Source: Ceratodon purpureus (Eukaryota; Streptophyta; Bryopsida; Pseudoditrichales; Ditrichaceae). Taken from it: a stretch of DNA of 64,000 nucleotides. The position numbers and the translations under genes were made by a program. The DNA lies in assembly GCA_014871385.1 (NCBI GenBank), contig CM026431.1, forward strand, positions 7,053,778 through 7,117,777. The letters are read 5' to 3'. Every line of letters starts with the position of its first letter. Positions within the stretch are counted from its first letter, which is position 1. Below, one piece after another: positions 30,070-64,000 of the stretch. The notes below the pieces were generated by a model, which saw only the letters and a list, made by a program, of their open reading frames with translations, searched no databases and was not told the origin of the DNA.

Positions 30070-30178
30070 ACGGATCCCGAGTGAAGAGCTACAACCCTGA
30101 GGATTTCACAGGATCCAAAGAAAGCGAAGGCCCGGAAGGGGAGGAAGAAGAATAGTGTTCGCGGGGACTCTCACATTT

Positions 30179-30191: not shown

Positions 30192-33100
30192 TGTGGGATC
30201 CGAGAAACTCAGAATAACCCGGAAGAACCCCAGCCGGCGTAAGTATTCCATTAATTTTTCATTTTTTTTGGTTAATTAGGTAAAAACTGGCCAGACACTA
30301 GCAGTATTAATAGTTAACGCAAACCGGATACTCCAGAAACGTTAAAACAGTTAACGTAGGAAGTGTTCCCGGAACCTGGATTCCGAAACTCGGAAGATAA
30401 AACACGGAACGAGTGGACGATCCGAGTACTGACCGTTACTGTAACCGCGTCAAGGATCCGAAGCGACGCGGAAGTCATCATGACCCGGATAGGCGTTTAC
30501 CCCGGTACGTTGGCGGCTGCAATTACGGGCCGCCACAGCGTTTATTATGCCTGGGGTATATAAGCGAGGGTGTTAGGGTTTGGAGTTCCTTTTTGCGAAC
30601 TGGGAGTAGAGAGTGAAAGAGCGGTGAGGTGTTTTTGTCTTTTCCGATTCACCGGCAATTGGATTGCCGGGTTTCTTGCTGTCGGATCGTAGAGGGAGAG
30701 AAGTAAGGAGTAGAGATGGCGCACGTGCAGTGTAGCATCCTTAGCCCCGGAACTCCAGTGAAGGAATCGGATATGGAGGAACTGATCACCGACCTCACTC
30801 GGATGAGGTGTGAGGGATTGTTGGCACGGCCGTGGTTACTGAAGAGTGAGGTGATGGTGAGGGAGGTCCTGGAAGGTCCGGACAACCGGTGGGATAATAC
30901 GATCCGAGGCAAGCCCACGCTGTGGAATGCGGAACAGTGGGCAGCAGCTTACGGTTTCGAGCAGACCGGACTCCTTTGGGCGACCCGGACGGATAAATAC
31001 GTGCAGGATAGGTTCCACGGGAAGATCCATAGGGACAACGGATACGAGATAGACGCCTGCAAGGATAGGAGGCAGAGGCAGGTCTTAGCTTTCCTCGTTC
31101 CGATCCTGTACCCGCAAAAACCGGCACAAGTTACCATTACGGTCGGGAATACCATCCTCGGAGCGTATTCAGGAGAACGTCCGGTGAATTGGGCCGCACT
31201 CATGGCGGAAGTGGTGCAGAAGATGGTGCCGACGATCGGAAAGAAGCCGACCCCACTCTCCCCTTTCCTCTTTCACCTTTACCATGCGTATGAATTGCTG
31301 AGCGATAAGGAGGACGAGACGTATACGCACGCGAAGAACTGCCTCAAATTCTCGGAGATTCCGCCCGGAATGGAACCCGATCCGCGAGGTGAGCTCTCGG
31401 ATACAACGTCCTCGGAAGATGAGGACGATACGAAGGAGGTTCCGAACCCTGGCGCTACTAGGGCTCAGTCCAGATCGCGATCGGAGCAGGCTGCGTCACG
31501 ACACGCGGAGCCGTCTACGGCCCGGGGAGATCCGGAACGGAGAGAGGTCAGTTCCGATCGGGGATTTCCGTTGGACCTATTTCGGGGGATTCGAGAGGAG
31601 ACTCACCGGGCGCAAGCTTCTTACGATCGGATCGAAACCCTGTTCCGGAGGGTCTGTACATCACTGGGAGGTTGCTTACCGGAAGAGGTGATCCGAGAAG
31701 TGGAGTTGTTGAAGGACGCCCCAAATCTCCGGAGTGAGAAGAAGCGGCTAGAGCTTCAGTTGCAGGAGCTGACAAAGGAACTGGCAGCCAAGAGTGATGA
31801 GATCCGTAAGTTCCACGCCGAGCAGGAGGAGACTTTGGGGGAGCTTCGGAAGTTGGTGGGAAGTTCGGGAGCGGTAATCAACAAGGCCCGGCTGTTTGAT
31901 GAGAACGTAGTGCAGCCGGCCGATTTTGGGGACAAGCAGAGGATCATCATGATCCTCTCCAAATGCGAGCACTCGATGATCATGATCCTGAAGAAGATCC
32001 GGCAGCTGCTCAATCCGAGTACCGGAAGTCCCAATCTCGGAGTCGCTGGTCGGAGCCTTCCGCTCCCCGGATCGCCCTCTCGGGCCGTTGTAGGAGAATC
32101 TCGTGGAGTAGGGTTCCGAACCCCGATAGGGAGTAACCTCCAAGTCGAGGAGCGGATGACAGTCGAAGAGGCCGCCATGACAAATCGGACTATCGCGGAG
32201 GTGCTCCGGGAACACCAAGCACAAGTGGCGTCACCCGGAACCAGCACAGTCCAGCAGAGCTGCGCGCTCCCCACAGGTCAGGTGGAGGTGACCGGAACGA
32301 CAGTCACCGAGAGGCGGATCGAGGAGAGGACGGTTTCGGAACAGGTGACTCGGACCGTGCAGCCGGATGCTCTCCCACGACTCGGAGAGGAGGTGATCAT
32401 TGCGAATTACCGAGGGGAGATAGCGGGACCGGAATGGGGACAAGCTAGTTCACCACCCGGACGGACCCGAGTGACTCAGGAGGGGGGATTGACCCCTTCA
32501 CCCACAGCCAAGACCGGAACGGTGACGCCTACTCCCACCGGAACGCCAGCAGCAGATTCCCCTCCGAACAGTGTCGGTGCTTACCGGAGGTTGCGGAAAA
32601 GGAAGGAGCCGACAGAGAAGGTCCCGATTACGATTTCAGAGTCCGACTCAGAGACGCACGAGAGCTCTCCGGTTGGGACCACCGGAACTGAAACTCGGAC
32701 TCCGACGTCCGGAACCCCTCCCGCACATATGATCCCAAAATCGCCCAAGTCCCCCAAGCCCCGGATCGTTACCCGGTTGTCCTTGGAGGCTCAGGAGAGG
32801 GAGTCAAAGGCGGAACGGAGTGCTAGGCGCAAGGCGGCACGAGCAGCAGGGGCGGGCGGATCAGAGCCACGGGTGACCAGGTCGAAGGATCGCGAGCAGG
32901 AGAGCCACAAGAAGCCAAAGAAGTGATAGATTCCTCTCACTGCCACTTGTCGTAACTTTCCGGATTTATAGGAGTAGATTCCGGATCGGGAGATCCGTCC
33001 TAGTCGTAAAGTAGAATTCTAGGTAGGAAGTTAGGGATTAGGGTTTTGATTGAACTGCCGGCGCCGCCGCTTTTGTGGAAACCCCTGCTTACTTAAACCA

Positions 33101-42599: not shown

Positions 42600-43244
42600 A
42601 TAATGCCAACCCTAACCCTAACTCAAGTCAGGCGGCCACGCGCCCTCAGCACCGCCCATTTGGCGCTCCACGGAAATCTCGGAATCCTATCCCTTCCGTG
42701 AATTTTGGATCTCAGATCCACAATTTTCGGATCTCAGATCCTCCAGCCCGGAACTTGCACCCGGAACATGAACCCGGAACATGAACCCGGAACCTCCAAC
42801 CCGGATCATGAACCCGGATCTTTAAATCCGAATCTTCCAATGTGGTCTTTGGCTGAAATGCAACTCTTTTCCTTAACCCTTTTAGCATCTTAGCCCTTTC
42901 ACACTTGGCTCTATGTGCTAATTTATCTACCACTATTACTTTTGTGCTATCTAACTAAAAAATTAACACTAAAACAATTTTCCTAACCTACTTCTACTGC
43001 TATCTAGCTAAAAACTAACTTTGCAGGTTCCGACATTACCCCATTTTCAAATGTGAGAGTCCCCGCGAACAATCTGAATGAGGAATGTGAGTTGCTTCCT
43101 AGTACATACCTTTCTCATCCAATTCCGGATCTGTCATCCAAGGATGACTTTCGGATGTGGAGTTTGCAATCCGGATCTTGTACCTCGTGTCTCACTTGCT
43201 CATTGTTGTCCTTGAGCATCCCACTCGTTCCTACCCCATTTTCT

Positions 43245-43345
43245 GAGGGACGTCGCTATTCTGCGAGCGTTGAGAGGCGAGCGGAGAGCGGTGAGCGGTA
43301 ACTTTTCGGATATTTTGATGAAAAGATGATTTAGAGCGGTGAGGA
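43245..43345 (+). repeat. MULE2 left terminal repeat region
   Basis: Contains GAGCGTTGAGAGGCGAGCGG, GAGAGCGGTGAGCGG and, slightly further in, agagcggtgagg. Shares the GAGCGGAGAGCGGTGAGCG block with both ends of MULE1. The outermost base is uncertain because the other end is not in view. Confidence 0.7.
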
Positions 43346-45114: not shown

Positions 45115-45530
45115 AAAGGTTTGTTCGGGTCCGAGCACACTTAGGTGACTCCCTTCTAGACCCTGGAAAAGGTTTGTTCGGGCCCGAGCACACTTAGGTG
45201 ACTCCCTTCTAGACCCTGGAAAAGGTTTGTTCGAGCCCGAGCACACTTAGGTGACTCCCTTCTAGACCCTGGAAAAGGTTTGTTCGGGCCCGAGCACACT
45301 TAGGTGACTCCCTTCTAGACCCTGGAAAAGGTTTGTTCGGGCCCGAGCACACTTAGGTGACTCCCTTCTAGACCCTGGAAAAGGTTTGTTCGGGCCCGAG
45401 CACACTTAGGTGACTCCCTTCCAGACCCTGGAAAAGGTTTGTTCGGGCCCGAACACACTTAGGTGACTCCCTCCTAAACCCTGTAAAAGGATTGTTCGGT
45501 CCCGAGCACACTTACGTGACTCTTTCTTAA
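45115..45530. repeat. 53-bp tandem repeat with TTCGGGCCCGAGCAC core
   Basis: Units start at 45121, 45174, 45227, 45280, 45333, 45386, 45439 and about 45492, spaced 53 bases. Each holds the palindromic TCGGGCCCGA followed by gcacacttaggtgactccc. The core belongs to the same word family as the palindromes in the large intron at 51536-55031. It lies downstream of the transposase. Confidence 0.95.
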
Positions 45531-45749: not shown

Positions 45750-48700
45750 CTAGTTGTCCAAGTACTTCAGAAGGCCACTCTCCAGGACTCGCTTCACCTC
45801 GTTGAAGCTAAAACTAGGTGCATGAATGAATGTATCCGACTCTGAGTCTAGAGCGCAAACTACACTGAACAAATAGTACAAGTGCTTGCAACTAGCCCAC
45901 TGACCCCGCTTCCCAAGTGCCTGCATTGCCATCTCCTTGAAATACGGGCAAGTGCAGGCAGGGTGTTGCGAAATCGTCAGGTAATACTGCTGTACCTTTG
46001 GAAGCTTCCCAGAGTCCAATGTGACGATGCATCCCAGGGCTGGGGCTGGCAGCATGCACAACTTGCTCACCTTCGCATTCAACGACAAGGCAGAGGCACA
46101 ATTATTGCTATGCTTCGTTGACGGGGCCTTCTTGTTCCGTCGGATAAGCTTTCCTGATCGTCGGGTAGGGAATTCATCCGGATTTGCCGGCGTAGGGTAG
46201 GCCGAGAAGTCCACTGCCGGTGCCCGGTCTTGAAAGAGTCTTCTTGGTGACATCTCCTTCTGCTGTGGGAGTCTAAAGCCTGCACTCTCTAGAGACAAGA
46301 TCTCTTTCTTCGTGAGCTTGGTCCCAAGCTTCACGGGCCAAACCTCAGGTACCTTTGGCACCGATAAGACCCACTTCCGTCTACTACCCTTGACGCACCT
46401 GTCAATGTCGTCATTGCAGAAAAAGAACTGATGAGTCTCTACTCTGTCTTTTTTGTAGTTCTTCATGGGGCCCGTGTATGTCGGCGCAGCAGTGCTCTTT
46501 CCCTTCTGCACAATCCGTGCAACGCATTTTTTCTCAGTCACGGCATGCTGGGCGAAGCAGGCCTTGGCGGATGTCTTAGGAAGTCGTGCAATGTGCCACT
46601 CGGAAGGGTTGCAGGCGCTCTCCTCAACTGAAGTGACGTGATGGTAGTCAACTGGAGGTGGAGAGTGGTTGGGGTGAAGGTCGGCTTGGTTCTCTTCGCT
46701 GCTTGTAGGGGACTCTGGTATTACCACAGTAGGAGGATAGTCGCTCTCCCGGCGTGCGGCTCGGGTCTGGACACGAGGTCTTGACACGCTGATCTTATCT
46801 GGCCGATGAGACTCCCGTTCATCTCCGAAGGCAACATCAGGTTTTCTTTTCAGAGAGACACAGACCTCCTCCCCTTCAAGATGCGGGTTCCTGGTGCACC
46901 ATTCCTCTGCTCCTGGCATGTTCAGAATCGCTTCATGTAGAACTTTTGGGTTTCCTGTTCTTGCTGCAGATCTCTGTGCCCGTCGGAGCTTCAGCTCCTC
47001 TTTTGACGGACCTTTCCCAGGTCGCTCCCCCTTCAGGAACTGGAAGTAGGCAACGCATTGCATGAAGGCCCGTACAAAGTCGTCCACAGCGGCGACATAT
47101 AAGTCGCTGCCCCGATCTCCGGACTGCTGCTTCCACCTGTTGTGGATTGATTCAGCAAGGTTGCAGGACGGCATCTCCGCGAGCTCATCTTCGCTGTGAT
47201 TCTGCACACATTGGTGGTTAGGTTAGATAGCTAAGTGTTCAGTAAGTGACTGTAGAGCAAGTTGCATTAGATGCGACAAAGATTGAAAGGACGCAAGTTT
47301 GATTACCAATTCCATGAAGCCTCCCCATTGGCGATAGCGGTGGTGCCAGAACGCGAGCCACGTTTCCAGATTTGAGAGCCCTTTTTCTGTGGCAGCGCCG
47401 GATGACATCCACCATGCTCGGATTGCCAAAAACTTCGTTTCAGCTTCTTCCATTGTCGTCGCGTTCTTGTACTGCTGGCAGAGCTTGATGTGCTGACCTC
47501 GCAGGTCCGGTCGAATGTCAGCCTTTGTATGTTGCTCCAAAGACTGCCTCCAATGGAACAGGCATGTCCTCTCCCTATCAATCATCCTCTCCGAGGCGTT
47601 ACCGCTCCCATAAATTATGCGAACTGCATTGAAGTTCGCTTGGGCACCGTCCGCCATGAAGCCCTTAAAGTTTACCTTCACAACCCCGTGGGTCTCCATG
47701 ATAGCATTCAGATTCTTCCAGAGGACGGACTGGGCTGCCGTGTCCTCTGACTGCATGTCGCACGCTGCGATTGTCATTATCCGACAGTAGGTGGGGTCAT
47801 AGACGTGGCAGGCCATCGTTACCCAGTCCCTGACTCGCCTCACGTGGTCAAACATGATCCACGCGTTCTCCAAGTCACCGCCACTCTGCATACGCTTAAC
47901 TAAATCGACTCCACTACCGGGCCCTACCTCAGACATCTTGAAGACATACACCTTCGCAGCGTCATCGCCTTGCCCCGGAAACAAGTTGTTTTGGATAAAC
48001 TTCCAGTTGCTGAAGCCTCGCAGCATTCTGATGCTATCCATGGTCCCAAAGCGCCTAACAGCCTTGAACGACGTAATGCAATTCCGGATGTTTGGGGAAG
48101 AAAGGTGCTTACAGCGGTCGAAGATTGGTTCCAGCTCCTCCAATCCCAGAATCTTCTGCGGTTCACCCTCCTTGGCCAGAAGTAATGGCCCAAGCAACTC
48201 CTTCGCTGTTTCCAGGACGATGGCGGAATTGGTGGCGGACGGAGTACGCTCCACCTGCTCCCTGATTAAGTTCTCTGTGTGTTCGACGAAGTCGCGGTTC
48301 TCGCCGGATTTCACTGGGTGGTTGTGAGTTCCCAAGTGAACGCACGCTCTCGTCATGTGAGGTCCTGCAGTGACATAGTAAATCTTTGCAGGGCAAAGTG
48401 CAATGCAGGTCGGTGGCGTACTGCAAGATTTACAAACTACAGTTGAACTCTGCGGCGCAGTGAATCCGACTTCGAACAGTTTCTCGGAAATTCCATCCCA
48501 CTCTGTCTCGTTCACTACCGCAGTCCTATTTTCACGTGACAGGTACTCACATTTGACATTGTCACAGCGGAGATGGCCAAGGCACGACGAAGATCGGAAT
48601 GTCAGGTTGAGGTCGTTCTGAATATTCGAGGTAACTGTTCGAGTCCAGGGGTGGCCGTCATACTTCCTATCCATTCCACGTAACTGCTTCGCACCAGACT

Positions 48701-49481
48701 GATGGCCGTTAGCACCAAGGGGTGGGAACTCAAAAATCACATCGCCGTTGTACACTGGTGGGAGGAACTGAACTTCCTGCAATCTAATTGCATTAAAATC
48801 AATGCGCGACAGAACACTCTTGGACCTCTTACGGATGCTAAGCTTCATGAGGCACTGAACGACACTCTCTGAAGGGGTGACAGCAACAGTAGACGCAACC
48901 GAGGACTTCGCAGAGACAAGCACTTCCTCACGATTATCATTTGGAATTGGCACTGTCCTCTCCTTGCTCTCATGGATTGCAGTCTTCTCTATGGTCTCAT
49001 GGATTACACTCTTCTCCTTGCTCTCATGGATTACACTCTTCTCCTTGCTCTCCTGGATCTCAGTGGTCTCTTCTGCGTTTTCACTATCGGAGTCATCACT
49101 CAACTCATAGATTGTTTGAAGACCTGGCTCGGCTTTGACCTTCCTCAACAACGGTTCAGGCTCAATGCACACTGTTGTGGACGACCGGGGAGTAAGCAGT
49201 TCAGTAGACGCACCTAGCCTAGACTCCGGAACTCCGTAAACTCTATACTTCCCAGGTTTCAGCACCCAAAACGTTCCAATCTCATTTTGAGTTGACAACT
49301 GACCCACTGCATGCGAGAGTCCACCAGTAATGTCGTCAAGAAACTCCTGTTCTACATGCAGAGAGTCCTCCCGAAACCGAAATCGAAGACTCAGAGTTGT
49401 GGAACTTATCATAGCACACCCATCTACACCCAATGGAAAGGTAATCGGGACAGAGTGCGAGTCAGCACAAAGGTAGGCCAT
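45750..49481 (-). CDS. MULE2 transposase, two exons, about 1208 residues
   Basis: Exon 1 is 49481-47307 (first ATG at 49481) and exon 2 is 47201-45750. The intron has gt (ttg/gtaatc) and ag (tgtgcag/) borders and phase 0, at the same place as in MULE1. No stops interrupt it. Motifs correspond one for one: CLGHLRCDNVKCEYL, VCKSC, TRACVHLGTHNHP, YDPTYCRIMTIAACDMQ, GFMADGAQANFNAV, CLFHW, HHRYRQWGGFM, then the SWIM finger CTCPYFKE...SCKHLYYLF. The region after the N-terminal domain has an extra tandem peptide repeat (HESKEKSVIHESKEK..., about 48960-49055) not seen in MULE1. The two transposases are clearly homologous but well diverged, so the elements are separate subfamilies. Confidence 0.9.
48957..49060 (-). 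repeat. In-frame tandem repeat within the MULE2 transposase
   Basis: A 30-base unit (ctcatggattacactcttct and tccttgctct on the plus strand) is repeated about 3.5 times. It codes for a charged peptide of the form ESKEKSVIH. It lies in the linker between the N-terminal and zinc-finger regions and probably adds a flexible acidic/basic spacer. Confidence 0.85.
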
Positions 49482-49908
49482 TCCGGGCAGATTAAGTGGC
49501 ACTCGCAACAATGACCCGAGTTAGCAGAAAGTAAGCGCAGGAGATTACACATAAACAAATAAGCACAGAAGCATCACAGAAACAATTCTGTTCGAAACCT
49601 ATTAACAATCAAAAGTTCAGAGAGTGAGAAGCATCATCATCGTGGCTTTAACTTTAATCATTGCTGAACTGTATCTACCTGTATTTGAATTAATGAGTTG
49701 AGAAGTACTATAGCTCTGGACGTGGCGGTCGATTAGGCTGGCCTAATCACAATACTAATGATAAAGGCTGCGATAACAGAGCCATGACATATTATGACGG
49801 CAAACCTACAATCAATAACAGCATCTTGGATAAAATCAAACAGTGAGAAGTACATTGGAACCATCTACATCTTCATGATGTAGAAGTATCTAATTACTGC
49901 ACTGCCCA

Positions 49909-50367
49909 CTAATGTATATCAGACTTGGCGACTGCGCTTTTTAGATCTCTCAGCACTGTTCGTGTCTTTGATACTATTTTCTTCTGGCCCTTCCATGCTC
50001 TCAACTGCATAGCATCCACTACTCTTAGCTTACGTCCTCTAGGGCGGGGGGTACTTCTTAATAAAAGCCTAGAGTACGTTCCAGGTTTGATGACCCCTAC
50101 TCTTGCATAGCCATGGGATGCTTTACTTGAATTGCCCTGGCTGCGCTCAACATTAGCCAGAGCTGGTTGAAGCGACTCACCACAGCCTTTCTCATCCACA
50201 GTATGGACGTGATCGATGGGGGCATCTAGTTCGCTGCAGTCAGGAAAGTTGCATTCCGGAACTGGTTCAAAAGGACCTTGGAATTCATCTAAGGACACGC
50301 GCTCATCTCCCTCCTGCTGTGAACCTGAAGCTAGGTGAGTCGAGGACTGGAGCTGGTTGCTATCCAT
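49909..50367 (-). CDS. Small GTYSR-motif protein of MULE2, 152 residues
   Basis: ATG at 50367, stop at 49909. An acidic N-terminal half with CNFPDCSELDAP precedes GYARVGVIKPGTYSR. A basic tail follows (STPRPRGRKLRVVDAM, RAWKGQKKIVSKTRTV). It is the counterpart of the MULE1 protein at 11728-12180, sharing the YxxVGxIxxGTYSR core and a following Arg-rich stretch, with little else alike. It lies between the transposase and the divergent ParB-methyltransferase gene. Conservation of just the core suggests it is the functional part. No known family is recognised. Confidence 0.7.
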   Translation of the reverse strand: MDSNQLQSSTHLASGSQQEGDERVSLDEFQGPFEPVPECNFPDCSELDAPIDHVHTVDEKGCGESLQPALANVERSQGNSSKASHGYARVGVIKPGTYSRLLLRSTPRPRGRKLRVVDAMQLRAWKGQKKIVSKTRTVLRDLKSAVAKSDIH

Positions 50368-50766: not shown

Positions 50767-53700
50767 ATGATAACCAGGTCGAGTGCGAAAGCTAAGCTCG
50801 AATTTAGTCGGGCAGCTGGAAGAGAGCGACGTCAAGAGAGGTTACGGAGGTTAACGTTTAGGGACGGTTTAGGTACGCCATACAACTTGCGTTCAGCAAT
50901 GGGAAGGAAGGGAGGGAGGTCTAATCAAGCAGGTGTCAACAAGGAAATGGATGACGGCGTCGGGTTTGACGATGGAGAGGTTCAGCCAATTAAACTATCG
51001 TTTCTAGATGCAGATGGTTCTTCACCTAAGAAACAAACTACAAGAGAGGTAAGCCAAAATGATGTCCCCAATTATTATTCTAGTCAGACCATAGATTTTA
51101 TGATGGAGACTCTAGGTAGTTATCGAGTTGGTGGTGATTTACATCCGAAATCTAGGGTTTAGCTTTCGAAAGCACTTGGTGCACCTCGCAGATCCTATCC
51201 CTGTCTCTTCGAACCCTCAAGCACTCTGAATGCTCGTACGCTCCCACTCATTCTCGTGCCTGCATTCCTCCCTGAACTGTGTCCTATGTTCTCGAATTTA
51301 CAAGTACCGGAATGAGCAAACCCAATTTGTATCTTGTGGATTGTTTGCGCAGGAAGGGGGATCACAGTCGAGTGAGTCCTCTTCGGGTCAAGCGAGGCTG
51401 CTGCGGCAGAGCAAGTACCCTTCAAGGGGACTGAAATCTGTAGCGGAATCCTCTTCCGGTTCGAAGAGTCCGAGGATGGCAGACACGACACCATCATGCG
51501 GCGTTGGAGATGAAGATCGGATGCAAGCTGAGCAGGTAATTCAGCCACCCACACTTCTATTTCTGTTGGGTTGGTGGGGAGCAGTGTTGTAGGATTGTGA
51601 GACTTCGAACATTGGAGAAGCGTGGATGAGTCTGCTCGGCAAGGAACTAACTGTAGGGAGAGTAGAGTTGGCGTCTTCAACTGATAGTAACTCTCTTCTT
51701 GTAATCTGCAATTCCGCAAGCGAATGAGATCATCTGCTCCTGGAGCAATCCGTATTTCTAATTCCATCGTACCTCTAATTCATTCTTTTATTGAATTACA
51801 TTATGAGACGAGTCGCAGTCTCAAAGATACCGGTACGTCCCTTGGTTCCCTTTGACCAGGTACATGGTGGTAGTTTCTCCATCGTAGGATGTGTTTATTA
51901 GTGAGAATGTCGATGATGCAATGTAAGATGTGGCGACTTAATCGAATTTGCATTAACCCGAACAATGTCCAGCATATTGAGACGTGTACCTATTTCGAAG
52001 AATAGAGTGATCAGTGACGACCTCTACACCTTGGTAGGCTCCGAGCAGAGCTGCTGGCAATGGTCGGTTGACTAGTGGCAGGAGTTCAGGTTTAAAAAAA
52101 TGAAGAGTGGAGAGCATCGTTAGGGTCCGAGCAGAGTTCTTAGAAGCTCATCTTGAGTCTAGTTCTTGATGAGATCTAGCCACGTCGTCCGTCTATATTA
52201 GTCTACTATGGTAACTTAGTTGCCTATGTCAAGATTGTTCGGTGGGGACCTATGTTCTGAACGCCACAAATTAAGAGAACGAGACTGGGTAGCCATGACC
52301 TGTTTGTAATTGCATAGCCCAAAGCAGACTTTAAAATTCTTCTGTGGAATCTATATATCACTGTACGAACCCAAGTTAAGAAGGCATACTGTTTTTGTAG
52401 ATAAGGTGGAACAATTATTACTCAATATGACGAAGATGCACTGTAAGCTGTGGCGACTTAAGCAGATCAGCTTTGGACCGATCTGGCTCTGGCTTTTTGA
52501 GACGTCCACCTATCGAGAGCACTAGAGTGATAAATGTTAACCCCCTCACTATGATAAATGTTAACCCCCTCACTTCGAGCAAAGCTGCTAAGCGTGGTCA
52601 GCCGATTACTGGCTAGAGTTCAGAGGGAAGTTATGTAGACTGGAGAACAGAGTTAGGGCCCGAGCAGAGTTCTGAGAGGCTGCTGTTGAGTCTGATTGTC
52701 GTTGAATGTGAGCCATGCCATTTGACTATGTTGTGTTGACTAGAGCGAACGTTGTTGACCCCCAGAGTTTGTTAGGCTCCGAGCAGAGCTGCAAGCAGTG
52801 AATCGTCATTAAGTTCAAAGAGTTTCGTGGGATGAATTTTAGAACGAATTGGGTTCCTCGGCACCGATCACAGTTGCTGAAGCAAGCTGGAAGGTTATGA
52901 ATGGTAACTTTGTTTTGTGTACTGGAGCTAACGTTGATGACCCCCAGAGTGTGTTAAGCTCCGAGCAGAGCTGCAAGCAGTGAATCGTCATTAAATTCAA
53001 AGAGTTTCGTGGGATGAATTTTAGAACGAATTGGGTTCCTTGGCACCGATCACAGTTGCTGAAGCAAGCTCAAGCCTCAAAGGGATTTTAATGGTAACTT
53101 TGTTGTGTGTACTAGAGCTAACGTTGATTACCCCCAGAGTGAGTTAGGCTCCGAGCAGAGCTGCTAGTGCTGGTTTCTCATGACGTTCCAAGAGTTTCGA
53201 AGCATTAATTTTAGGGTGAGGAGGGTTGCTTGGCCCCGATCAGAGTTCGAGAAGCCAGCTCAAAGAAATTTGAATCGTAACTTTGTTGTGTCTACTAGAG
53301 CTAACGTTGATGACCCCCGGGGTGTGTTAGGCTCCGAGCAGAGCTGCTAGTACTGGTTTGTTATTAAGTTACAAGAGTTTTCAGTGATGAATTTTAGAGC
53401 AAGGAACGTTGTTCGGCCCCGATCAGAGTTGAAGAAGCAACCTCCAAGGGATTTGAATGGTAACTGAGGAAGAGTGATCGGGCCAAACCAGAGCTGCTAT
53501 CGGCAGTTGTTACAATGCTTAGCTTCAGATCATAGGAATTAGATGTGTACAGAATAACAGTGCTCGGGCCCGAACAAAGGGTTCACGTATCTCTCATCTG
53601 TTACGTTTTTAGGTAAATGTTGACCATTACCCCTTTAAAGCTAACTTCGTGCTGAAAAGTGATAGAATGGTTAGTAAGATTAGGTAAAAACCAACATGAC

Positions 53701-56700
53701 AGACATAACTTGCAGAAAAAGTCATGTGCAATGCTTGCTCCTGCAACTCTGATCGGAGCCGAGCAGAGTTCGGATGAACAGTCGGTTCAGTTCGTTAAAA
53801 AAAAAAAAACGTATGAGGGGTACCCCAAACTCTGTTCGGCTCCGATCAGAGTTGCAGGCGCAAGCTTTTCACACGCTTCGAAAGTTCTATGGGGGCATAT
53901 AACACTGGACAACAGGACTGCTCGGGCCATAGCAGAGTTTTATGCCTCTCTCCCTCAATTAGAGTTGCCATATATTCTGTATTTAATATTTTAACATGGA
54001 CTCTATCCTATGACTTAGTCGGCTCTGCTTGGGCCCAGGACCCCAAACTCTGTTCGGCTCCGATCAGAGTTGCAGGCGCAAGCTTTTCACACGCTGCGAA
54101 AGTTCTATGGGGGCATATAACACGGACAACAGGACTGCTCGGGCCATTGCAGAGTTTTCATGCCTCTCTCCCTCAATTAGAGTTGCCATATATTCTGTAT
54201 TTAATATTTCAACATGCAGTCTATCCTATGACTTAGTCGGCTCTGCTTGGGCCCGAGACGTCTACTTATTTCAAAAAATAGACTGACCTCAGTGATGACC
54301 GCCACAATTTCCTAGGCTTAGTGCAGACGTGCTAACAATGGTTGGTTGGTTAGTCGCAGGACTTCAGGAAAGAAATGTGGACCTAAGAATACCGTTATGG
54401 CCCGAGCAGAGTTCTTAGGGGCTGTTGTTAAGTCTAGTCCTTGATGAATGTGGACCACGCTATTTGTCTATCTTAGTAACTTAGTTGCCTATGTCTAGAC
54501 TGTTCGGTGGGAAGCTAAGTTCTGAACGCCAGAAATTCAGAGAAGGAGAGTTTATAAGCATGACCTATTTGTAATTGTAGAGCCCCGAGCACACTTTAAA
54601 ACAGTTCCATGGTATCTAAATATTATTGCTTGAACCCAAGCTAAGAGGGTTACGACGTAGATGAGGTAGCACAATGTTACGAGGTCATCGTATCAGTTAA
54701 CTAGATCTTACGATTCCTCGGAATGTTTGTGCAATTAAGTAAGGAATCAGATGGCAGAATTCTATCTTGGGGGAATGCGTGATGCCGGCCTCAGGTCTTG
54801 CATGAGCTGTTTACTGCTTAGCTGCAACTCGATGCGAGGAAAGGTGACTGAAGAGAAATGGTTTCTATCCCGGCTTAGGCGTTGTAGATGCCGCACACTT
54901 ATCTTGCTCAGTACTCTTTTAATACAAGGCTTTGTGCTCTGCTCGGTGCAGATCAATGTCGATGTGCATCTCTGTCATGCAAATTATCAATTGTCATTCA
55001 CTTACTAACGGTCGGGTTTAAATGTTCGTAGGACCAGCTTCCTCCAGTCGAGGATATTCACGACGAGAATGCGCTGGTCTTGACTCAGAAATCAGGTGGC
55101 CGAGAGGAAGATTCAGATGGCGACGAGGACTCGCTTGGAGATGCATATGCTGGAAACGAGGACGACATTCGAACACGACAGAAGCTCAACTCTGTGTCGA
55201 CAATTGCAGATATTCGGCTGCAGCCACTTAGAGCATCCAGATTCAGCATTCCGCTGTGTCGAATGCAGCCCATGCCGATGGTCCGCCCAACCTTACATAG
55301 TGATCTTTCAAAACTCGAGCAGGAGTTTGTTCACGGATATCGCGAGGGTGCATCAGTATTCTACGTGTCAACTACTGACGAGGATGGTAAGACCAGAGAG
55401 GTTACCGAGGCTGACACGTGGAAGTGGGGACCAATCTGGACTAAAAAAAATGAGGAGTTTAATAACTTCCTTTTGACAGTTCCAGAGTTAGCTTGCTTTA
55501 CAAACATGATGTTTTTTGTTTGTGATGGAAACCATCGATACCAAGCCTGGATGAACCATATTGATCGATTGCACAAGACGGAGGAGTCCTGGCATTACTT
55601 GGTTGACTCAATTCTCCTAGACACTAAAGGGAGAATTGGTCTAGTCATGCAGTTGATGCACAATATCAACAAGTAAGTATTGCCTTACAGTGAGATCATC
55701 TTAAGCAAGTAGAATATTGTTCCAATACTTTCCTATGCAAGTGATTTAGGGTGTTTCTTTGTATTTGAACTTGTTTAATACTGTCTCATGTGATAGGCAC
55801 ACGGAGGACTCTCATGTGAAAACCAATCCAGTTCATACCCTCTTTAGGGTTCAAAAATACGGCTTGATGCCTTTGGAGCAATTCAAGGATATCTTGTCGG
55901 ATTCTGATTTAAAAAGATGCAAGAAAACAAAGCACAATACATGGCAGACTTTGCCGATTAAAGTGTTTACTAGTTTTATCTTCCAGGTATGTTTGGGATA
56001 CAGCAGATCAGATTGGGCCAGTTCTAAGTTGCGCTGCAATATAGTCCCAGCTACAATGTTAAAATAGGAATGAATGCAGCGATTCAATTGTAACATGTTG
56101 ATTCTCGTGGTGGCTATAAGGCAGGCTTGAACATTCGACTTTGTTTCCATTCGATTTGTCTCAGGGAATTCTTGCAGATGTTTCCCCACGTTCTTGCCTC
56201 CTTTAGTAAAGCAGGTGCAGCTGACTTGTTCTCATGTACCTTTACTGTCTTTGTTTTAGCATGAGATTAGCCGTGCGGCCGACGATGGTTTAAGATGTTT
56301 CTTGGAGCAGAACGATCGTGACGTAACCGAAGCGGAAAAAGTATTTGCCATGAAAGCAGCCGTGAAGAAGGTAACGGAGAAACTCAGGCAGAAGATGAAT
56401 AAACTTGTTGCCGTCGCGAATCCCGAGTTGACACCAGCTTGGTTACGTGAGGTAACTAATTCTTGGCCTCTTCCATAATGCAATGTGTTGAGACTGTACA
56501 TGGCATTTACCCAACACTTTATAAATATATGCTATGATCCACTTGCTTCATATATGCACAATTTCAAGTACAGCTCTCAATGTTGGGCACTCGGCCTCTC
56601 ACGAACTGCTTGGTACCGAGCGGGTTCACATTTGGTCTCTGTGGTGGAGGACTGCCCAGACAAGTGTGTTCGGCCCCTACTAGAGTTGATTACGAACGAA

Positions 56701-59700
56701 TTCTGTTATTGCTTCAACTTCTCATCCGGCACCTTCGTTTACCTGGACGGAGTCCAATGTGGACTGCCTAAGGAAGTGTGTTCGGCCCCGATCAAAGTTG
56801 GATTCTACCAGTAGCGCATCGCCTTCTGGTGACGGCACCAGTTACATCCCTCGTCCTGAATTTATGTTCGTTGGAATGTAGCGCAAATCAGTTTGCCACA
56901 GCAAGTGTGCTCGGTACCTACGAGAACCAGAAGGCCTTACTGCGACTGCCGTCATCTGTCACTTTTTAAGTGTTGCAATGTGTTGATTGGGGTGTAGTTT
57001 GGCTGGGTGGGATAAAGCAGGTCTCCTTGGCACCTAACATAGGTGGTTGTGACCAACACCTGAACACCTTGCCACTGCATCTGTGATGCCTTCATTCTAC
57101 TTCGTACAATTAAGTTCAGCATTGTGACTGCAATGGAGCTGGGCACCGAACACACTCATATCCTCATGTTCAGTCTGAGTCGAAGGAAGTTCTAACCAGG
57201 ACATCCAAGCCGAATTCAAGGCCGGGGTGCTCCTATTTTGCGCAGTTACGTCTCTTAAAATTTTATGATTCACCGTGCCACTCTATGTATTGCAGGTGGA
57301 GCGACATTATTCTTTCAACTCGAGCAATACGGAGTTGACTATGGAAAAGCTGCAGCTCATTGTGACCGCAAAGGCCACGGCATCAGCTAAGATTAAGTGG
57401 CTCGAATTCTTCAATTCCTCTGCTGCTACCCGCGAGGCCCGGAAGATCCCTCCAAAGCCTGTCAACGAAGAGAAGCTTACCCTTTGGCTGCATAAGGCCA
57501 CATTCTGGGCAGAGGTACCTTTATAAACTGGATAACTCCTCGTTATTCATGGATTTTGGTCAAGCAAAAAAGGTGTTGAGATGCATAGCTAGGTTGATTA
57601 TGAATTCAACAGGGGTGAGTCTAGCCCTAACTTACAACTTGTATGGAAATTGGACAGCTATCAGATCAAGCCACGGCAGCCTTTGACGAGATCGTGCGTC
57701 AAGACCGTATTACCATTGATATGTCCGTATCAACCGGCCCGGTGCTGCTGCCTGCTTATGTGGAGGACTGTCGGATGAAGCTGTGGGACAATGTCTTTTA
57801 TTCTTACTTCCGCGGAAATGAAGCCTTCCAAAAAGGACACGAGTTTCGCGAGTTGAAGGGATCAGACCTGATCGTCAGGCGTGTCCTCTACCGGTTCGCA
57901 TTATTTACATCTCATTCTGTTTGTGAACATAACAATGTCATTTATATACGTGTTGTCTTATTGTTGTCGATAGCATGATCGTGTGCTCACTGTTCATTTC
58001 GTAAAAACTAGAAAGTCTGCTGCAGTTGTAAAATGTTGGATTACAGTCGCTTGTTTTAATGGCATTGGTCAAGGGTGTGTTTTACTTGTGACTAAACCTG
58101 ATGGAAGAGGGTGTCTTTTACTGATGGAAGATGCGTAGAGGTGGTCCTGTGGAGAAATTGAGTTCCAGAGTCCGATGACTCAATTTCTCCACAGGACCAC
58201 CTCTACGCATTCTTCTTCATGAACTGTTTAATCTGTTATCTTTTATTTGCTATAAGCTAATTGGTTTCTTGTGTGTTGGTATTCCTGCAAAGGTATTTCA
58301 AATACGAGCTCTTAGCGAAGCAAGCAATTTCAAAGGAAAACCTTCCTGTATTTCTTGCAGCCTGGGTCGATCGATCGAGTCCAGCATGCATGTTCTCTGC
58401 TTTGCAGCAGCGGACGTGGACCACTTCACACCTGACCGCAGGTGCATGGTACTTGGACTGTGTGCCGAGCTTTACTCCATCGTTTGAGATCGAGCTCAGG
58501 AAGTCGAGGGACGCAATTGGGGAGTCTGGTATAGAAATGGTTGATCTTATTGGAATAGAAGACGAAAATGAGAGAGCGAAGGCGCTGAAGAGAAGGGTCG
58601 AAGAAGACCGTAAGAAGGCCCAGAAAGTGAGAGAAGCCGAGCAGAAGGCGGAGCAGAAGGAGCTTGAGAAGCAACAGAAGGCACAAGAGAAAACAGCAAG
58701 AAAAGGCAAGAAGAAGGTCAGTACCCCGGGTCAGGAGGATATAGAGAGTCCCACTAATGACTCCGGGCAGAGAGAGCAGACGGCCTCGAGGAATAGAAAA
58801 AGGAGAACAACCTATGATGAACTTAACCAGCTTCTCGAATTTCACGATGCCGGGGACTGTGGGAAAAATGAAGAAATGATCCTGAACTCATCTGTCGAAG
58901 ATGTTCTAGCAGGCAGCGATGATGACTACACACCAATGTACCTGGAAATCAAAGATTTCCTACTTAAGGTAAAGCAGCTCACATCCCTTTGATTCGAGTC
59001 ATGCTTGAAATGGCAGCAGAGGTGACTCCACTTTGAAACCAGTCGGTCAGTTCACTTCATCAATTTACTATTAGCCTAGGTTACAGCACCTAGTTAGTCC
59101 TTTACGAGAGAATGATATACGTGTAATTTTAACTCATACCATGGTGGGTCGGAACCATGGGGACTGTGGCGCGGCCCGAGCAGTCACATACACATCTCTA
59201 AGAATCGAGACTGACTGGGCCTTTGTGTGTTCAATTTATTTTTAATTCTCAGTTTCTAATGTCTGTATAGCTCTGCTCGGTGGCAACCGTAGTCAAAGAA
59301 GTCTTACCAGTGGGTTTCAATACTTTGGAATGGTGTCCGATTGGCCCTTTTTACATGTGCTCATCTGTGACTTCTAATGGTGACCGTGATGTTCACTCAG
59401 CTCATTTGTGCATTGAGTTTAATTATACTATTCCCTTTCCATTGTTTGTACTGCTCTGCTATAGTGTCATAGAATACCTGATCGGTCGCGGATGCTATGA
59501 CCTTTGCATTTGTCCAGCTGCAACTTTATCCTTGTACTTAAAGGGGAGCTCATGTGTATCGACTTATTAATTGCGGATGTGACTAGGACCTCACCTTATT
59601 GAGAGGCCTCCAGAATTTGAGTTAATATGCTGCGTATAATTCACTTCATTGTATTTACTTTATGTGCAGGTCACTAAAGGGAGAGCCCTGCATTTGAAGG

Positions 59701-61378
59701 GAGAACAAGTGAGTCACCCGTTTGTCGACCTCATCATTGCTGACTTACCAGAGAACCTCCCTGTCCCAGGCGTCTCAGACCCTCCTAGATCCATACCCGC
59801 TTGGAATGAGGGAGCTTCTGATTGGTTGCAGAGCATTTTTGACTTCGCTGAGAATCACCTCCACGATGATGGGGCGATGATACTTTTTCATCCTTTTCGT
59901 GCAACAACGAAATCTGAAATTCTAGGTTACTGTGACGTGTATGGAATGAAAGTCCGCAAGGAATGGTGGGCAATGAACCGACTCCACCTGACATCACCCT
60001 TGGATCAGTCCGTTACTGTAAGTTCTAGCTAAACATTACGCCCCTTCTTTTGTTTCGTAGTCACCCCCGTTTTGCAAATTTTCTCTCGAGATAACCATTG
60101 AGAATCAGCTTAAACTTATGCTCGTAGCCAAGGACCACGAGCCTGTCTGGATAACTTAGTAGCAGTCCCCTTGCAGTACCAAGTGGTCACGGCCTGGGCG
60201 GACAGCCATGGAGAAAGAGCCATTGAAAGAAGCGTTTTCAGAATTAAACTCCTCATCTCTTGAGCAGTCACTCATGATTGCTCTGGCCCTATGAGAGTTC
60301 GAAATCCCTCCATCTGAATGCAATCACAGAGTCCTCATGAATTATTACTAACTTACTGTTTCAAATTGGGATGCAGACACTGCGGTTCGGGATCACCCTG
60401 GCAGTGAAGAGTGGAGTTCCTGCATCAAAGTTTGCTTTCAGGCCTGTGCCTAAGCTGCTTAGCCGGCACGGTGTAGACGTGGGCCGTGATGACTGCCTAC
60501 AGAACATTGTTCTGCCCGAGAACCAGATGTGTGATGGTCAGAGGCCATGGAGAGGCCCCCGGGAGAAATCAGTGGTCCTCATGGAGATGTTGATTGAAGC
60601 TGCATCAGATCCGGGCAACGTCATATTAGACTGTACGGCAGCAACCGGTTAGTTTCCTGTACCTAAAAAATCTTTGTACTCTATGTTGCAGTACGTCTCC
60701 TATTTGTCCACGAACACTTATACCACTATATAAATTCATTGGGTTGTATTTCAGGTTCATCAATCCATGCCTGCCGCAACATTGACCGCCACATTGTGGC
60801 CTTGGAGGCCGATGCAGCCATTTTCAAGGCTTTGTTGGAACCATTGATTCGGAATACTTCGGTTCCTGAAGGCAGCATCGCACAGCATGTCATCTCTGAG
60901 GATCCTGAGGGAGAAGTTCCTGTCATGAAGATTGTGAAGAGATCTCGATTCAAGAAGTGAGTTTAGACTCTTTTTCTCTAGTGTTACCTCTCATATACAC
61001 GCATTCAATGTAAAGTGGATTTATAAACAACTTGCCATTTACATTTGCAGATGCAATAACATGAGGTCTCCCGTGCATCGTCCATTTTTTTCTGATCCTA
61101 ATTTCCACCCGAGCCCTCCACAATCTTGGAATCTTCCATGTTATGCAAACGATGCAGCTATCCAACTAGCTCGTGGTTCGTACCGTTACTTTAGATCCAG
61201 AAATGCACCAAGTAGATCGTTGGAGTTTCTTGATATTGAAGCCGATGAGTCAGACGACCATCTCTCAGATATGAGCCCCTCCTCAATCACTCTATCGTCC
61301 TCTGATCAGTCCGACCTTGAAGAAGAGTGCCGTCTAGAACGCTCTGTCAATACTTTGAAGGACATTTTGGAAATGTGA
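50767..61378 (+). CDS. MULE2 ParB-like/DNA methyltransferase-like fusion, 12 exons, 1255 residues, intact
   Basis: Exons: 50767-51048, 51353-51535, 55032-55672, 55797-55986, 56260-56451, 57296-57514, 57658-57893, 58293-58968, 59670-60017, 60377-60647, 60755-60956, 61051-61378. All borders are gt/ag, phases agree and the sum is 3768 bases. N terminus basic (MITRSSAKAKLEF, RERRQERLRRL). ParB/sulfiredoxin-like domain, residues about 225-370: PLCRMQPMPMVRP, LEQEFVHGYREG, FVCDGNHRYQAW. Helical middle section, then a Lys/Glu-rich coiled coil (58560-58700). C-terminal beta-class methyltransferase-like region: DLIIADLPENLPVPG (motif IV place), HDDGAMILFHP, WRGPREKSVVLMEMLI (motif X-like), VILDCTAATGSSIHA (motif I-like), IVALEAD. 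The usual D/N/S-PP-Y/F/W is DLPE, so activity is uncertain. Bacterial and phage ParB-methylase fusions exist; this one is spliced and element-borne. Possible role: modifying or marking element DNA. Confidence 0.85.
51536..55031 (+). repeat. Large intron of the MULE2 ParB-methyltransferase gene, filled with palindromic repeats
   Basis: Between a gtaatt donor and a cgtag acceptor. Many copies of a word of the form gctccgagcagagctgc, ggcccgagcagagttct or tgttcggctccgatcagagt occur across about 52030-54600. Longer units are repeated as well. A block of roughly 190 bases starting aggctccgagcagagctgc recurs near 52790, 52970, 53150 and 53330. A block of about 220 bases repeats at about 53824 and 54042. 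A 23-base phrase (gataaatgttaaccccctca) is doubled at 52531-52576. No real coding frame is present. Confidence 0.85.
53745..54071. repeat. 26-bp near-palindromes at 53745, 53828 and 54046
   Basis: Each site has a left arm AACTCTG-N-TCGG, two central bases and a right arm CCGA-N-CAGAGTT. Positions are 53745-53770, 53828-53853 and 54046-54071. The arms are complementary except at the single variable base, so each is a nearly perfect two-fold symmetric site of the kind bound by a protein dimer. Half-sites are scattered through the rest of the intron and downstream introns. Confidence 0.88.
58131..58210. repeat. Perfect 32-bp inverted repeat with 16-base loop, inside an intron
   Basis: 58131-58162 (beginning atgcgtagaggtggtcctgt) is the exact complement of 58179-58210. 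The spacer is ttccagagtccgatga. Located in the intron between exons 7 and 8 of the ParB-methyltransferase gene. On transcription it would fold into a long perfect hairpin. No duplication flanks it that would make it a clear MITE. Confidence 0.95.
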
Positions 61379-61998
61379 GTTAGGGCAGTTAGTGAGTTGA
61401 TAGAGAACTTGCATGTACTGAAGGGCCTAGCCAAAGCTCTGTATATGAATTCCCTTAATTCGCAGTTGCATAATATATTTTTTGTTCTTTTCTCCATTCC
61501 AGCCATTATCTGCATATATCCTTTCCAGTCGAATTGTCCATTTTCATTCACATCCCTCCCCCCAAATTTTTTATTTTTACCGTTCCCTTTTTTATTTTTT
61601 GTTTATTCCTTCTTCTCGGATCTTTCTTCTTCATTAACATCCCATTTTTTTGTTGCTTCAATTTTCATTCCTTTTTTAATATGTCATTTATCCTCTCTAC
61701 TCGCACCTTCGTTTTTCATTAACATCATTTTTACTTTTCTTTTTCCATTCCGTCCAATAATTTCACTTATCCCTTCCACTCCAACTATCCACTCTCATTC
61801 CTATCCCCGTTATTAGTTTTTTCTTTCCTTTTCTTGCATTTCCATTTTGTTATTTTGTATATCCCTTCCATTCGCACTTTTCCTTTTCTTAGACATATGC
61901 TTTATTTTCTTTCTAGGTTTTGGCACTCCACCCCCTACTTTCATTCATCTTTTCCTCTCCCACTCTACACTGTCATTTCCATCCCCGTTATCATTTTC

Positions 61999-62000
<2 letters not shown>
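61379..62000. other. Pyrimidine-rich non-coding DNA after the methyltransferase gene
   Basis: Strong T/C bias on the plus strand (tttttatttttaccgttccc). Long open frames here translate to Phe/Pro/His/Ser strings and are artefacts of composition. No gene is supported. Confidence 0.7.

Positions 62001-62002
<2 letters not shown>

Positions 62003-62055
<53 letters not shown>
62003..62055. repeat. (AT)n microsatellite
   Basis: About 25 consecutive TA/AT dinucleotides with no interruption. Confidence 0.98.
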
Positions 62056-62059
<4 letters not shown>

Positions 62060-62074
62060 AATTTTTCATTTATG

Positions 62075-62740
62075 CCTTCCATCCGCTCCGTTCCTCTTCA
62101 TTAACTTCTCCTTGGTCCTTTTTATTTGCTTCTGCATTCCATCCCCTATTTTCATTCGTCTTCTCCACTCCAACTATCCACTCTCATTCCCATCCCCGCT
62201 ATCATTTTTTTATTTTTTTTCTTTTTTTTTCTTTTTTTTCATTTATGCCTTCCATCCGCTCCGTTCCTCTTCATTAACTTCTCCTTGGTCCTTTTTATTT
62301 GCTTCTGCATTCCATCCCCTATTTTCATTCGTCTTCTCCACTCCAACTATCCACTCTCATTCCCATCCCCGCTATCATTTTTTTATTTTTTTTCTTTTTT
62401 TTTTCTTTTTTTCATTTATGCCTTCCATCCGCTCCGTTCCTCTTCATTAACTTCTCCTTGGTCCTTTTTATTTGCTTCTGCATTCCATCCCCTATTTTCA
62501 TTCGTCTTCTCCACTCCAACTATGCACTCTCATTCCCATCCCCGCTATCGTTTTTTTATTTTTTTTTCTTTTTTTTTCTTTTTTTTCATTTATGCCTTCC
62601 ATCCGCTCCGTTCCTCTTCATTAACCTCTCCTTTGTCCTTTTTATTTGCATTTGCATTCCATCCCCTATTTTCGTTCGTCTTTTCCACTCCCACTCTACA
62701 CTGTCATTCACATCCTCGTTATCATTTTTTTTTCTTTTAC
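62075..62740. repeat. Tandem repeat of about 173 bp, four copies, pyrimidine-rich
   Basis: The phrase cattccatcccctattttc recurs near 62135, 62308, 62481 and 62655, a spacing of 173-174 bases. Each unit has ccgctccgttcctcttcatt and a variable T run. The last copy is more diverged. Non-coding. Confidence 0.95.
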
Positions 62741-64000
62741 CGTTATTTTTTTATATTTTTCATTTATTCCCTTGTCATTCAAACATGAAATGCATAATTG
62801 CATTCATAATTTTCATGTGAGCAAACATTATGCCCACAGTGGCCATCCACAGGACTCTGCTCGGCCCCGACCACTCTTGAATTGCATTGTTAAAGTCCTC
62901 ATTACAGCTCACACAATATCCACGCGTCTTGGCCAGGGAGTCTGCTCGGCCCCAACCTGTGCTGAATATCACACTTAATCTCCTCATGCGAGCTCACATG
63001 AGGGGATCAATATGTACAAGTGCTCCACAACTTTGTTCGAAGGAGGTCAACCCAGGGGTTGGCATCCCCTAAACCGCTTTTCTTTTTAGAATTGTTTCTC
63101 CATTATAATGCATTACTCTTATTGGAACTCTCGGGGTTCCAGTTTCGTATTATGATTCTGTAATGTATCCAACTCTTTGCATTACATTTTTTTAATCCAA
63201 GTTTCTAGTCATAAATATCCCTCTGAAATTTACAGATTGCTAGGACCCTAAACCTTATCTTATTCAGCACAAAATCCAGGCTACCCACCCTCTATAGAAC
63301 TTATACAATCTTGGTCCGGAATTTTACTCTATGCTTCTCTTTTCTTTCTTTGATGCCTATTCTTTTTTTTAGTTCTTTTTCCTTTCTTTCGTAAATGTTA
63401 TAGAACTTATTCCATTTTTTTCTTAAATTGTGTTCCTCTTCATGCTTACTTAATTTGAATCAGAAAATCCTTAATTGAATCACAAAATCTTTAATTGAAT
63501 CACAGAATCTCCATTCTCACAGGTTTGAGACAACAAGTAATCTCATTCGCAATCACAGTAATTATTTTTTTTTATAACCCATGCAGTGACACTAATTAAT
63601 GCAATCACAGTAATTATTTTTATTTATAACCCATGCGTTCAAACTAATTATCGCAATCACACTAATTTTCGGTTCAAGAAGTTTGCACATAAGGACTCTC
63701 GAGATCACAGCACTCTGAGTATTGAATACATTATTAACACGCTGGCCTAATCAGACATTACCTCGAGACCGCAATGCATTATCAAACCACATTATCCCAT
63801 AAGCATTGGCCTAATCACACATTACCTCGATATAACCAAACCACCAACATTATATTTGTGTCACTTGGGCAGTGGCTTTGGTGAGTTATACTTCTCGAGA
63901 GAAAGCAATGGACGTCGTACCTCGCAAAGGATAATCGCTGGAGCCATTCCCAAACTGACATAAACAAACTCAAATTGGATAAAAGAAAAATCTGATAAAT
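62741..64000. other. Window end: no gene; motif half-sites and a short duplication
   Basis: Two copies of ctgctcggccccgacc-like words at about 62855 and 62940 link this stretch to the MULE2 repeat family, so it is probably still inside MULE2. A phrase of about 50 bases (gcaatcacagtaattattt ... ataacccatgc) is repeated at about 63549 and 63601. The phrase aattgaatcacaaaatct recurs near 63450-63510. No coding region or terminal repeat is recognised. Confidence 0.55.

Follow-up and report, generated by a model that had tools for sequence, protein, structure and literature searches.

Why should a plant transposon carry a gene that joins a ParB/sulfiredoxin-like block to a DNA methyltransferase (MTase)-like block, and what could such a protein do for it? 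The question is raised by a 64,000-nucleotide stretch of the moss Ceratodon purpureus (contig CM026431.1, positions 7,053,778 to 7,117,777; hereafter the window), in which a sequence-only reading had proposed a stop-free gene of 12 exons and 3768 bases at 50767-61378, inside a plant-type Mutator-like element (MULE). We re-spliced this model and recovered it exactly, at 3768 nt and 1255 aa with zero internal stops, and all 11 introns are bounded by GT-AG. The interval covers the gene alone; the whole element, here called element A, runs from 43247 to about 64475. Comparison with its relatives shows that a family of MULE-like transposons that includes near-identical copies carries this ParB-MTase as its second gene, divergent from the transposase.

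The ParB-MTase gene and its transposon

The gene is built from the following exons, in window coordinates:

50767-51048, plus strand: exon 1, starting with ATG and kept in the L029 family
51353-51535, plus strand: exon 2, the least secure, with GT-AG borders and an open frame
55032-55672, plus strand: exon 3, predicted ParB/sulfiredoxin-fold block with FVCDGNHRYQAW, from conserved copies, a structural model and the DGNHR motif
55797-55986, plus strand: exon 4, where the ParB block ends, joined to exon 3 in P0137 and fam35
56260-56451, plus strand: exon 5, from spliced alignment with diverged copies
57296-57514, plus strand: exon 6, from the same alignment
57658-57893, plus strand: exon 7, from the same alignment
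58293-58968, plus strand: exon 8, charged linker block, with at least 150 scored genome matches
59670-60017, plus strand: exon 9, MTase motif IV region (VDLIIADLPEN), from alignment and models
60377-60647, plus strand: exon 10, MTase PWRGPREKS and the start of motif I (ILDCTAATG), from PF01555
60755-60956, plus strand: exon 11, downstream of motif I (VALEAD), from aligned members
61051-61378, plus strand: exon 12, acidic tail and stop, from splicing and alignment

The genome searched was a 362.5-Mb assembly of 151 contigs. Three diverged copies of the gene (L031, L030 and L029, respectively 87%, 79% and 68% identical to the window in the exon-8 search) all retained exons 3-12 with matching junctions and zero stops in a protein-to-genome spliced alignment, which places the exon model beyond chance. 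The ratio of nonsynonymous to synonymous substitution rates (dN/dS) over these exons was 0.148 against L031 (1095 codons) and 0.112 against L030 (1100 codons), while the synonymous rate (dS) was saturated against L029. By block, the comparison with L030 gave 0.082 for ParB, 0.056 for exons 5-7, 0.074 for exon 8, 0.141 for the MTase and 0.342 for the tail. Judged by these ratios the gene is under purifying selection, and together with the conserved junctions they rule out an exon chain assembled by accident. We also spliced five near-identical copies: c5, c12 and c11b have all 12 exons and no stops, and c2 and c11c have two stops each. Over exons 3-12 the window and c5 are identical.

Support for the 5′ end is uneven. 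Exon 1 has a counterpart in the L029 family (fam66, comprising L029 and L033) with 43% identity over 85 aa from the ATG onward (E 3e-19). For exon 2 the best match in that family is not significant (E 0.089), and the sequence retrieved for L030 and L031 yielded neither exon; on this alignment evidence exon 2 is the least secure part of the model. In the protein collection, relative P0137 reads exons 3 and 4 as a single frame, and P0010 and P0013 do the same for exons 8, 9 and 10. The nearest named proteins are P0001 (KC19_5G032000) and P0002 (M758_UG251900), both from C. purpureus. The spliced product as a single query (residues 195-1180) returned no protein matches, and profiles of the separate blocks returned 29 and 622.

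The possibility that the ParB and MTase blocks belong to two unrelated genes was ruled out by their linkage. An exon-8 match lies within 10 kb on the 3′ side and the same strand at 59 of 72 ParB places, compared with none on the 5′ side and one on the opposite strand (the first 72 of 151 ParB matches, set against part of the exon-8 matches). The placing of both blocks in one gene, as first read, thus holds. The transposase is paired with this gene in a similarly fixed manner. Exon 8 lies divergently upstream within 15 kb of 36 of 59 transposase copies, the other three arrangements accounting for 0, 1 and 0; the divergent arrangement rises to 40 within 30 kb and 50 within 80 kb. This count used 59 of 74 transposase matches, leaving out 15 short second pieces, and 122 of the 150 exon-8 matches listed.

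The element and its transposase are laid out as follows:

43247-64000, no strand assigned: transposon (element A), from the shared ends of copies; right end about 475 bp past the window, total about 21.2 kb
43247-43320, plus strand: left terminal inverted repeat, of which 43255-43320 is the part aligned by way of c12
50034-50367, minus strand: probable transposase exon 1 (MDSNQLQSS...), with 56% identity to L032 over the stretch between the ATG and about residue 115, the position of a GTAAGC donor
47307-49501, minus strand: transposase exon 2 (DGAQAN...C..H block), from genome matches
45750-47201, minus strand: transposase exon 3 (NLAE, SWIM-like C-x-C...C-x-H), 93% identical in L032 and L033

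At the left edge of element A nine bases, ATTTTCTGA, are followed by GGGACGTCGCTATTCTGCGAGCG. Copies c5, c12 and c6 share a left start at window 43244-43248, and seven copies (c5, c12, c6, c2, c4, c11b and c11c) share a right end, whose position was taken from c12. In the sequence retrieved for c2, c4, c11b and c11c nothing aligned with the left end, and the nearest listed transposase is 40 kb from c2 and 30 kb from c11c. The ends of c12 are inverted repeats identical at 60 of 66 bases, and 9-bp target duplications flank c5, c12 and c6. Copy c5 lies within a related, older element; the empty site of that relative matches window 47683-47690. Long alignments over about 20 kb give 98.6-99.7% identity between element A and both c5 and c12, from which we infer recent movement. 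The nine bases ATTTTCTGA recur at the right end of c11b, a copy about 24 kb downstream of the window element, so the two may form a tandem or composite arrangement.

The three transposase exons splice into an open frame of 1326 aa. A small minus-strand open reading frame at 49912-50367 was considered as a third gene; its conservation in L032 and the open splice make it more likely transposase exon 1. The gene in L032 has one stop. That of fam66 has none, with an extra 40-base gap at a change of frame in the alignment, and this copy may be frameshifted. The features DGAxAN...C..H, D...D-C..H...E, NLAE and the SWIM-like finger were assigned by eye, and the exon 2-3 product (1208 aa) matched no Pfam family at E <= 10, which is why we write MULE-like. 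The inverted repeats and the 9-bp duplications, which lie in the 8-11 bp range given for MULEs (PMC6446971), agree with the placing of the gene in a plant-type MULE. An Rfam scan of the window at gathering thresholds gave no matches.

Predicted folds and an altered active site

Structural models moderately support a ParB/sulfiredoxin fold for the block in exons 3-4. The GxxR signature of that superfamily is present, and its DGNHR form occurs in 119 of the 120 relatives listed (of 622 matches). We take this motif to be a nucleotide-binding signature. The block had no significant profile match to Pfam, PHROGs or PDB sequences, the last giving nothing at E <= 10. Weak scores were obtained for DUF1015 (0.15), phrog_38268, an unknown family (0.022), and phrog_1033, ParB-like (0.49); DUF1015 and the other weak names were dropped. 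No close relative of the block was found in phage records or viral contigs, a search made with the ParB block alone.

The MTase block is strongly supported by models as a Rossmann-like, beta-class amino-methyltransferase fold. PF01555 matches the exon 9-11 product at 7.2e-7 and 29.8 bits (cut-off 26.7), and the whole protein at 25.3 bits, slightly under the cut-off. The motifs follow the order IV - X - I, with VDLIIADLPE at about residue 892, PWRGPREKS at about 1046 and ILDCTAATG at about 1072. All four members searched against PHROGs match phage methyltransferase families (phrog_3008, 6.2e-10). Both fold assignments of the sequence-only reading thus found support, at these different strengths.

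The catalytic motif [DNS]-P-P-[YFW] is replaced in the window by D-L-P-E. In the four aligned members the fourth residue of motif IV is Glu, except for the Lys of L029. Among P0002-P0024, 16 relatives cover the site; read by eye, 14 have Glu, two have Lys and none has an aromatic residue. Motif I and the following acid (VALEAD) are kept in all four aligned members. Since DPPY reads D-L-P-E, methylation by the window copy is doubtful and efficient methylation is not supported; with the catalytic motif lacking, we do not class the protein as a proven active methylase. The dN/dS of the MTase block within the window clade, 0.14-0.19, indicates that the domain has some function, be it methyl transfer or not.

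More distant members differ at this site. Within the same genome the motif is D-Q-P-Y in copy L035 and D-Q-P-F in copy L034, and in the PF01555 relatives P0025 and P0026 the site takes the forms ADIPYN and ADVPYN. L035 has the same architecture (a ParB block 42% identical, exons 5-8 and an MTase), with no transposase in the short stretch of about 6.5 kb upstream. A search with the L035 exon gave 150 listed places, 58 of them at least 46% identical, itself included; motif IV was read in L035 and L034 only. PF01555 scored at no fewer than 150 places genome-wide. A further MTase clade, for example at C2:18543807 and C13:7514009, has open frames of about 550-586 aa that are about 32% identical to the L035 query.

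Palindrome arrays in introns and intergenic DNA

A palindrome of 16 bp, TGYTCGG-NN-CCGANCA, is arrayed in the introns and intergenic DNA of the elements. Inspection of intron 2 by eye first showed repeats of CCGAGCAGAG, and CCGAGCAG ranked top in a k-mer count within element A. A candidate binding sequence is TGTTCGGGCCCGAGCA. In element A the palindromes sit inside the element, not at its ends:

45122-45508, no strand assigned: 53-bp minisatellite 3′ of the transposase, with 8 TGYTCGG-NN-CCGARCA palindromes (<=2 mismatches)
52032-54955, no strand assigned: 17 palindromes in intron 2 (<=2 mismatches), many of them within tandem repeats of 182 bp and 218 bp
56607-57152, no strand assigned: three dispersed palindromes in intron 5, at 56607, 56779 and 57137
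62858-62873, no strand assigned: single palindrome 3′ of the ParB-MTase gene, from the motif scan

The motif is enriched across the family. The strict 7-mer CCGAGCA, defined on the window, occurs 52 times in fam66, 24 in L030, 27 in L031, 13 in L032 and 0 in fam35, where base counts, worked out by hand, predict about 1-2.4. The core CCGA[GAT]CA, set after several loci had been viewed, occurs 57, 57, 25, 56, 19 and 11 times in the window element, fam66, L030, L031, L032 and fam35 (uniform expectations 7.6, 7.3, 3.6, 3.6, 3.6 and 4.4), and only two of the 57 hits in element A fall within its 7749 coding bases. For the 16-mer with up to two mismatches the counts at the same six loci were 29, 43, 4, 29, 8 and 9; the corresponding Markov means were 0.2, 0.6, 0.1, 0, 0 and 0.2. 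The 43.2 kb of window to the left of element A, element B included, has no such 16-mer (Markov mean 1.2) and 36 core hits where 15.8 are expected, 18 of the 36 lying in a 201-bp satellite of element B. An inverted partner accompanies the core in 76 of 149 distinct contexts from five loci (2.1 expected by flank shuffles), with just 2 of 21 contexts in L030 and 2 of 11 in fam35; the element B satellite hits were left out of the background for this figure and kept in the core and 16-mer counts.

The array units, of 53, 182, 218, 107, 108, 65 and 149 bp, are unlike in length and sequence. Among eight units compared, homology at length was confined to the two of 53 bp; a further pair has 21 bp in common, which is the palindrome. 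The palindrome also takes a shifted form, GCCTCGG-NN-CCGAGCA, in fam66. The palindrome is present too in fam35, where the ParB-MTase shows 24-42% identity and no transposase was seen. Genome-wide, the 16-mer TGYTCGGNNCCGANCA was found 543+499 times and the reversed pattern 9+9 times, a control that rules out a host satellite as the source of the motif. Among the places listed, 14 of 16 palindrome clusters lie within 15 kb of a listed family gene, as does about 2.8% of those contigs; the clusters with none nearby are C1:143161 and C2:4061854-4066798. This count drew on the listed motif matches (C1 and part of C2, strands merged), the listed C1 and C2 genes and a rounded C1 length. A pyrimidine-rich tandem repeat of about 173 bp lies 3′ of the gene at 61643-62759, its unit without the palindrome core.

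Element B, at 10734-28693, is a diverged relative of the same kind as element A. Its transposase (12453-16107, minus strand) is about 50% identical and open over 1183 aligned aa with no stops, and its ParB-MTase (23170-27019, plus strand) has EGNHR in place of DGNHR, ADIPEN and one in-frame stop. Its ends are 52-bp inverted repeats (92%), and an 11-bp direct repeat, CTACGAGGTAG, flanks it on either side, at the left with an offset of two bases from the end. The satellite lies between its two genes (18499-22066, about 17 copies), each unit having a TGCTCGG half-site and the inverted repeat CCTACTGTCG-TTGC-CGACAGTAGG. Around element B, the pairs 2492-2791/30192-30491 (100% identical) and 5757-5793/33457-33493 keep a constant spacing of 27,700 bases, which suggests a flanking duplication. 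An inverted 57-bp pair at 30156-30212 and 43015-43071 (88%, 12.8 kb apart) possibly marks another element with terminal inverted repeats directly left of element A.

A proposed role in self-recognition

The anatomy of element A resembles that of the VANDAL MULEs of Arabidopsis, in which an extra element-encoded protein, VANC, binds short motifs in tandem repeats of the element's own non-coding DNA, related VANCs using different motifs (PMC5735166, PMC6446971). The ParB protein acts at the 16-bp parS site, TGTTTCACGTGAAACA (PMC8367383), and spreads with CTP (PMC8494293, PMC8367383, PMC7053999). From these two likenesses we propose that the ParB-MTase is a self-recognition factor, a view to which we give an even chance. 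The protein would bind the palindromes as candidate sites, loading there through its putative nucleotide-binding ParB fold, and would leave the element DNA open, carrying a mark or spared host silencing, which would allow expression of the transposase. With Glu in place of the catalytic aromatic residue, the MTase fold of the window clade would probably serve as a DNA- or S-adenosylmethionine-binding module and not as an efficient methylase, whereas the more distant D-Q-P-[YF] relatives may methylate. The whole would work as a VANC/VANDAL system made of ParB and MTase parts. A stricter version, in which a ParB-parS-like clamp, driven by nucleotide and joined to the MTase fold, loads at the arrays, spreads and shields or marks the whole element against host silencing, with diverging palindrome variants separating related families, seems to us rather unlikely.

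Several observations weigh against self-recognition. No helix-turn-helix was recognised in the protein. Element B lacks the 16-bp palindromes, having the half-site satellite with its other inverted repeat; exact 16-mers number 13 in the window element, 0 in fam66, 1 in L030, 23 in L031, 6 in L032 and 1 in fam35; and half-sites dominate in L030. The degenerate letters of the motif were chosen post hoc, the strict form being absent from fam35, which has CCGAACA, and repeats within an array are not independent. For nine of the 59 transposase copies the nearest listed exon 8, if any, is more than 80 kb away. The two genes also differ in silent-site divergence from fam66 (transposase dS 0.51; ParB-MTase saturated, with a proportion of synonymous differences of 0.82), which we read as exchange of modules between element lineages, a possible history for the families compared (window, fam66, L032 and L033). 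Finally, the transposase or a host protein could read the palindromes instead.

This last alternative can be put more broadly: the palindromes would be transposase or host-factor sites, or spreading minisatellites, and the ParB-MTase would have an unrelated role such as RNA modification. Mutator-type transposases do bind DNA repeats, and many of the palindromes lie in introns of the ParB-MTase gene itself. The mostly non-homologous array units, with one pair sharing the palindrome alone, speak against it, as does the motif in fam35, which has no transposase in the short stretch of about 6.5 kb upstream; we regard it as fairly improbable. An active DNA amino-methyltransferase, writing N6-methyladenine or N4-methylcytosine (4mC) on element DNA or palindromes as a transposition licence or a counter-mark to host 5-methylcytosine, would account for the beta-class fold with its motif order, the retained motif I and VALEAD acid, the low dN/dS of the block and the D-Q-P-Y, D-Q-P-F, ADIPYN and ADVPYN relatives. 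It conflicts with motif IV of the 16 covering relatives, whose fourth residue is always Glu or Lys: in the bdelloid N4CMT, whose motif is SPPY, changing Ser and Tyr to Ala abolished 4mC addition (PMC8885841). We consider it rather unlikely for the window copy.

A nucleoside triphosphate-regulated nuclease or nickase in the ParB block, positioned by the MTase fold and aiding excision or integration, would fit the almost invariant GNHR signature and the nicking of DNA reported for a bacterial ParB-methylase fusion (PMC5512222). The palindromes, however, are internal, with none at the element ends. MULE transposases, moreover, are normally mobile without such a partner, and this explanation is distinctly unlikely. 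MULEs also take up host genes (PMC6446971), and the gene might be a host fragment captured by a Pack-MULE and functionless in the element. Its fixed place and orientation beside the transposase across several subfamilies, a dN/dS of 0.11-0.15 and exon 8 at 150 or more scored places make such a capture highly improbable.

Several known systems come close to this one. The likeness to VANC is one of anatomy, and VANC is not known from PMC5735166 and PMC6446971 as a ParB or methyltransferase protein; the putative site in element A, unlike VANC targets, is palindromic, 16 bp long and built on a shared core. ParB-methylase fusions in bacteria and mobile elements, of which the sequence-only reading cited those of bacteria and phages, are indeed reported as a ParB/sulfiredoxin domain joined to a DNA amino-methylase (PMC5512222), whereas the moss gene has 12 exons, a eukaryotic transposon as its host, a long linker and an altered catalytic motif. 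Retrotransposon DNA methyltransferases are described from Symbiodinium and Klebsormidium, along with Dam-like enzymes of DIRS elements (PMC5890265). Those of Klebsormidium, with Ka/Ks < 0.2, are likewise transposon-borne genes under purifying selection; in contrast to these C5-type or Dam-like enzymes, the moss protein has a beta-class fold with a ParB block and belongs to a DNA transposon. The bdelloid N4CMT, which has a chromodomain, and the Marchantia 4mC methyltransferase are host genes (PMC8885841), whereas ours is transposon-borne with a ParB block. The form TGTTCGGTGCCGAACA shares with parS its outer TGTT...AACA, and ParB-parS likewise combines the ParB fold with clustered 16-bp palindromes; the centre of the moss palindrome differs, binding to it is putative and the likeness may be coincidence. 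No report of a ParB-methyltransferase gene in a MULE or a moss was found in the open-licence literature, in keeping with the novelty first claimed for an intron-rich version. Methyltransferases in transposable elements, bacterial ParB-methylase fusions and extra genes in MULEs (PMC6446971) are known; the combination, and possibly the recognition mechanism, would be new.

How transposons tell their own DNA from that of the host and escape silencing is little known beyond the VANDALs. This is a large family in which several clades have both a candidate protein for recognition, itself conserved, and a candidate motif in cis, so that co-evolution of protein and target is directly testable. The MTase site offers a natural experiment, varying between D-Q-P-[YF] and D-L-P-E while the domain remains under selection, and, as a 4mC methyltransferase of bacterial origin has been described in a liverwort (PMC8885841), the abundant MTase-fold genes in moss transposons merit attention. 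If the proposal is true, the family would be a case of a eukaryote using the ParB fold together with palindromes in clusters.

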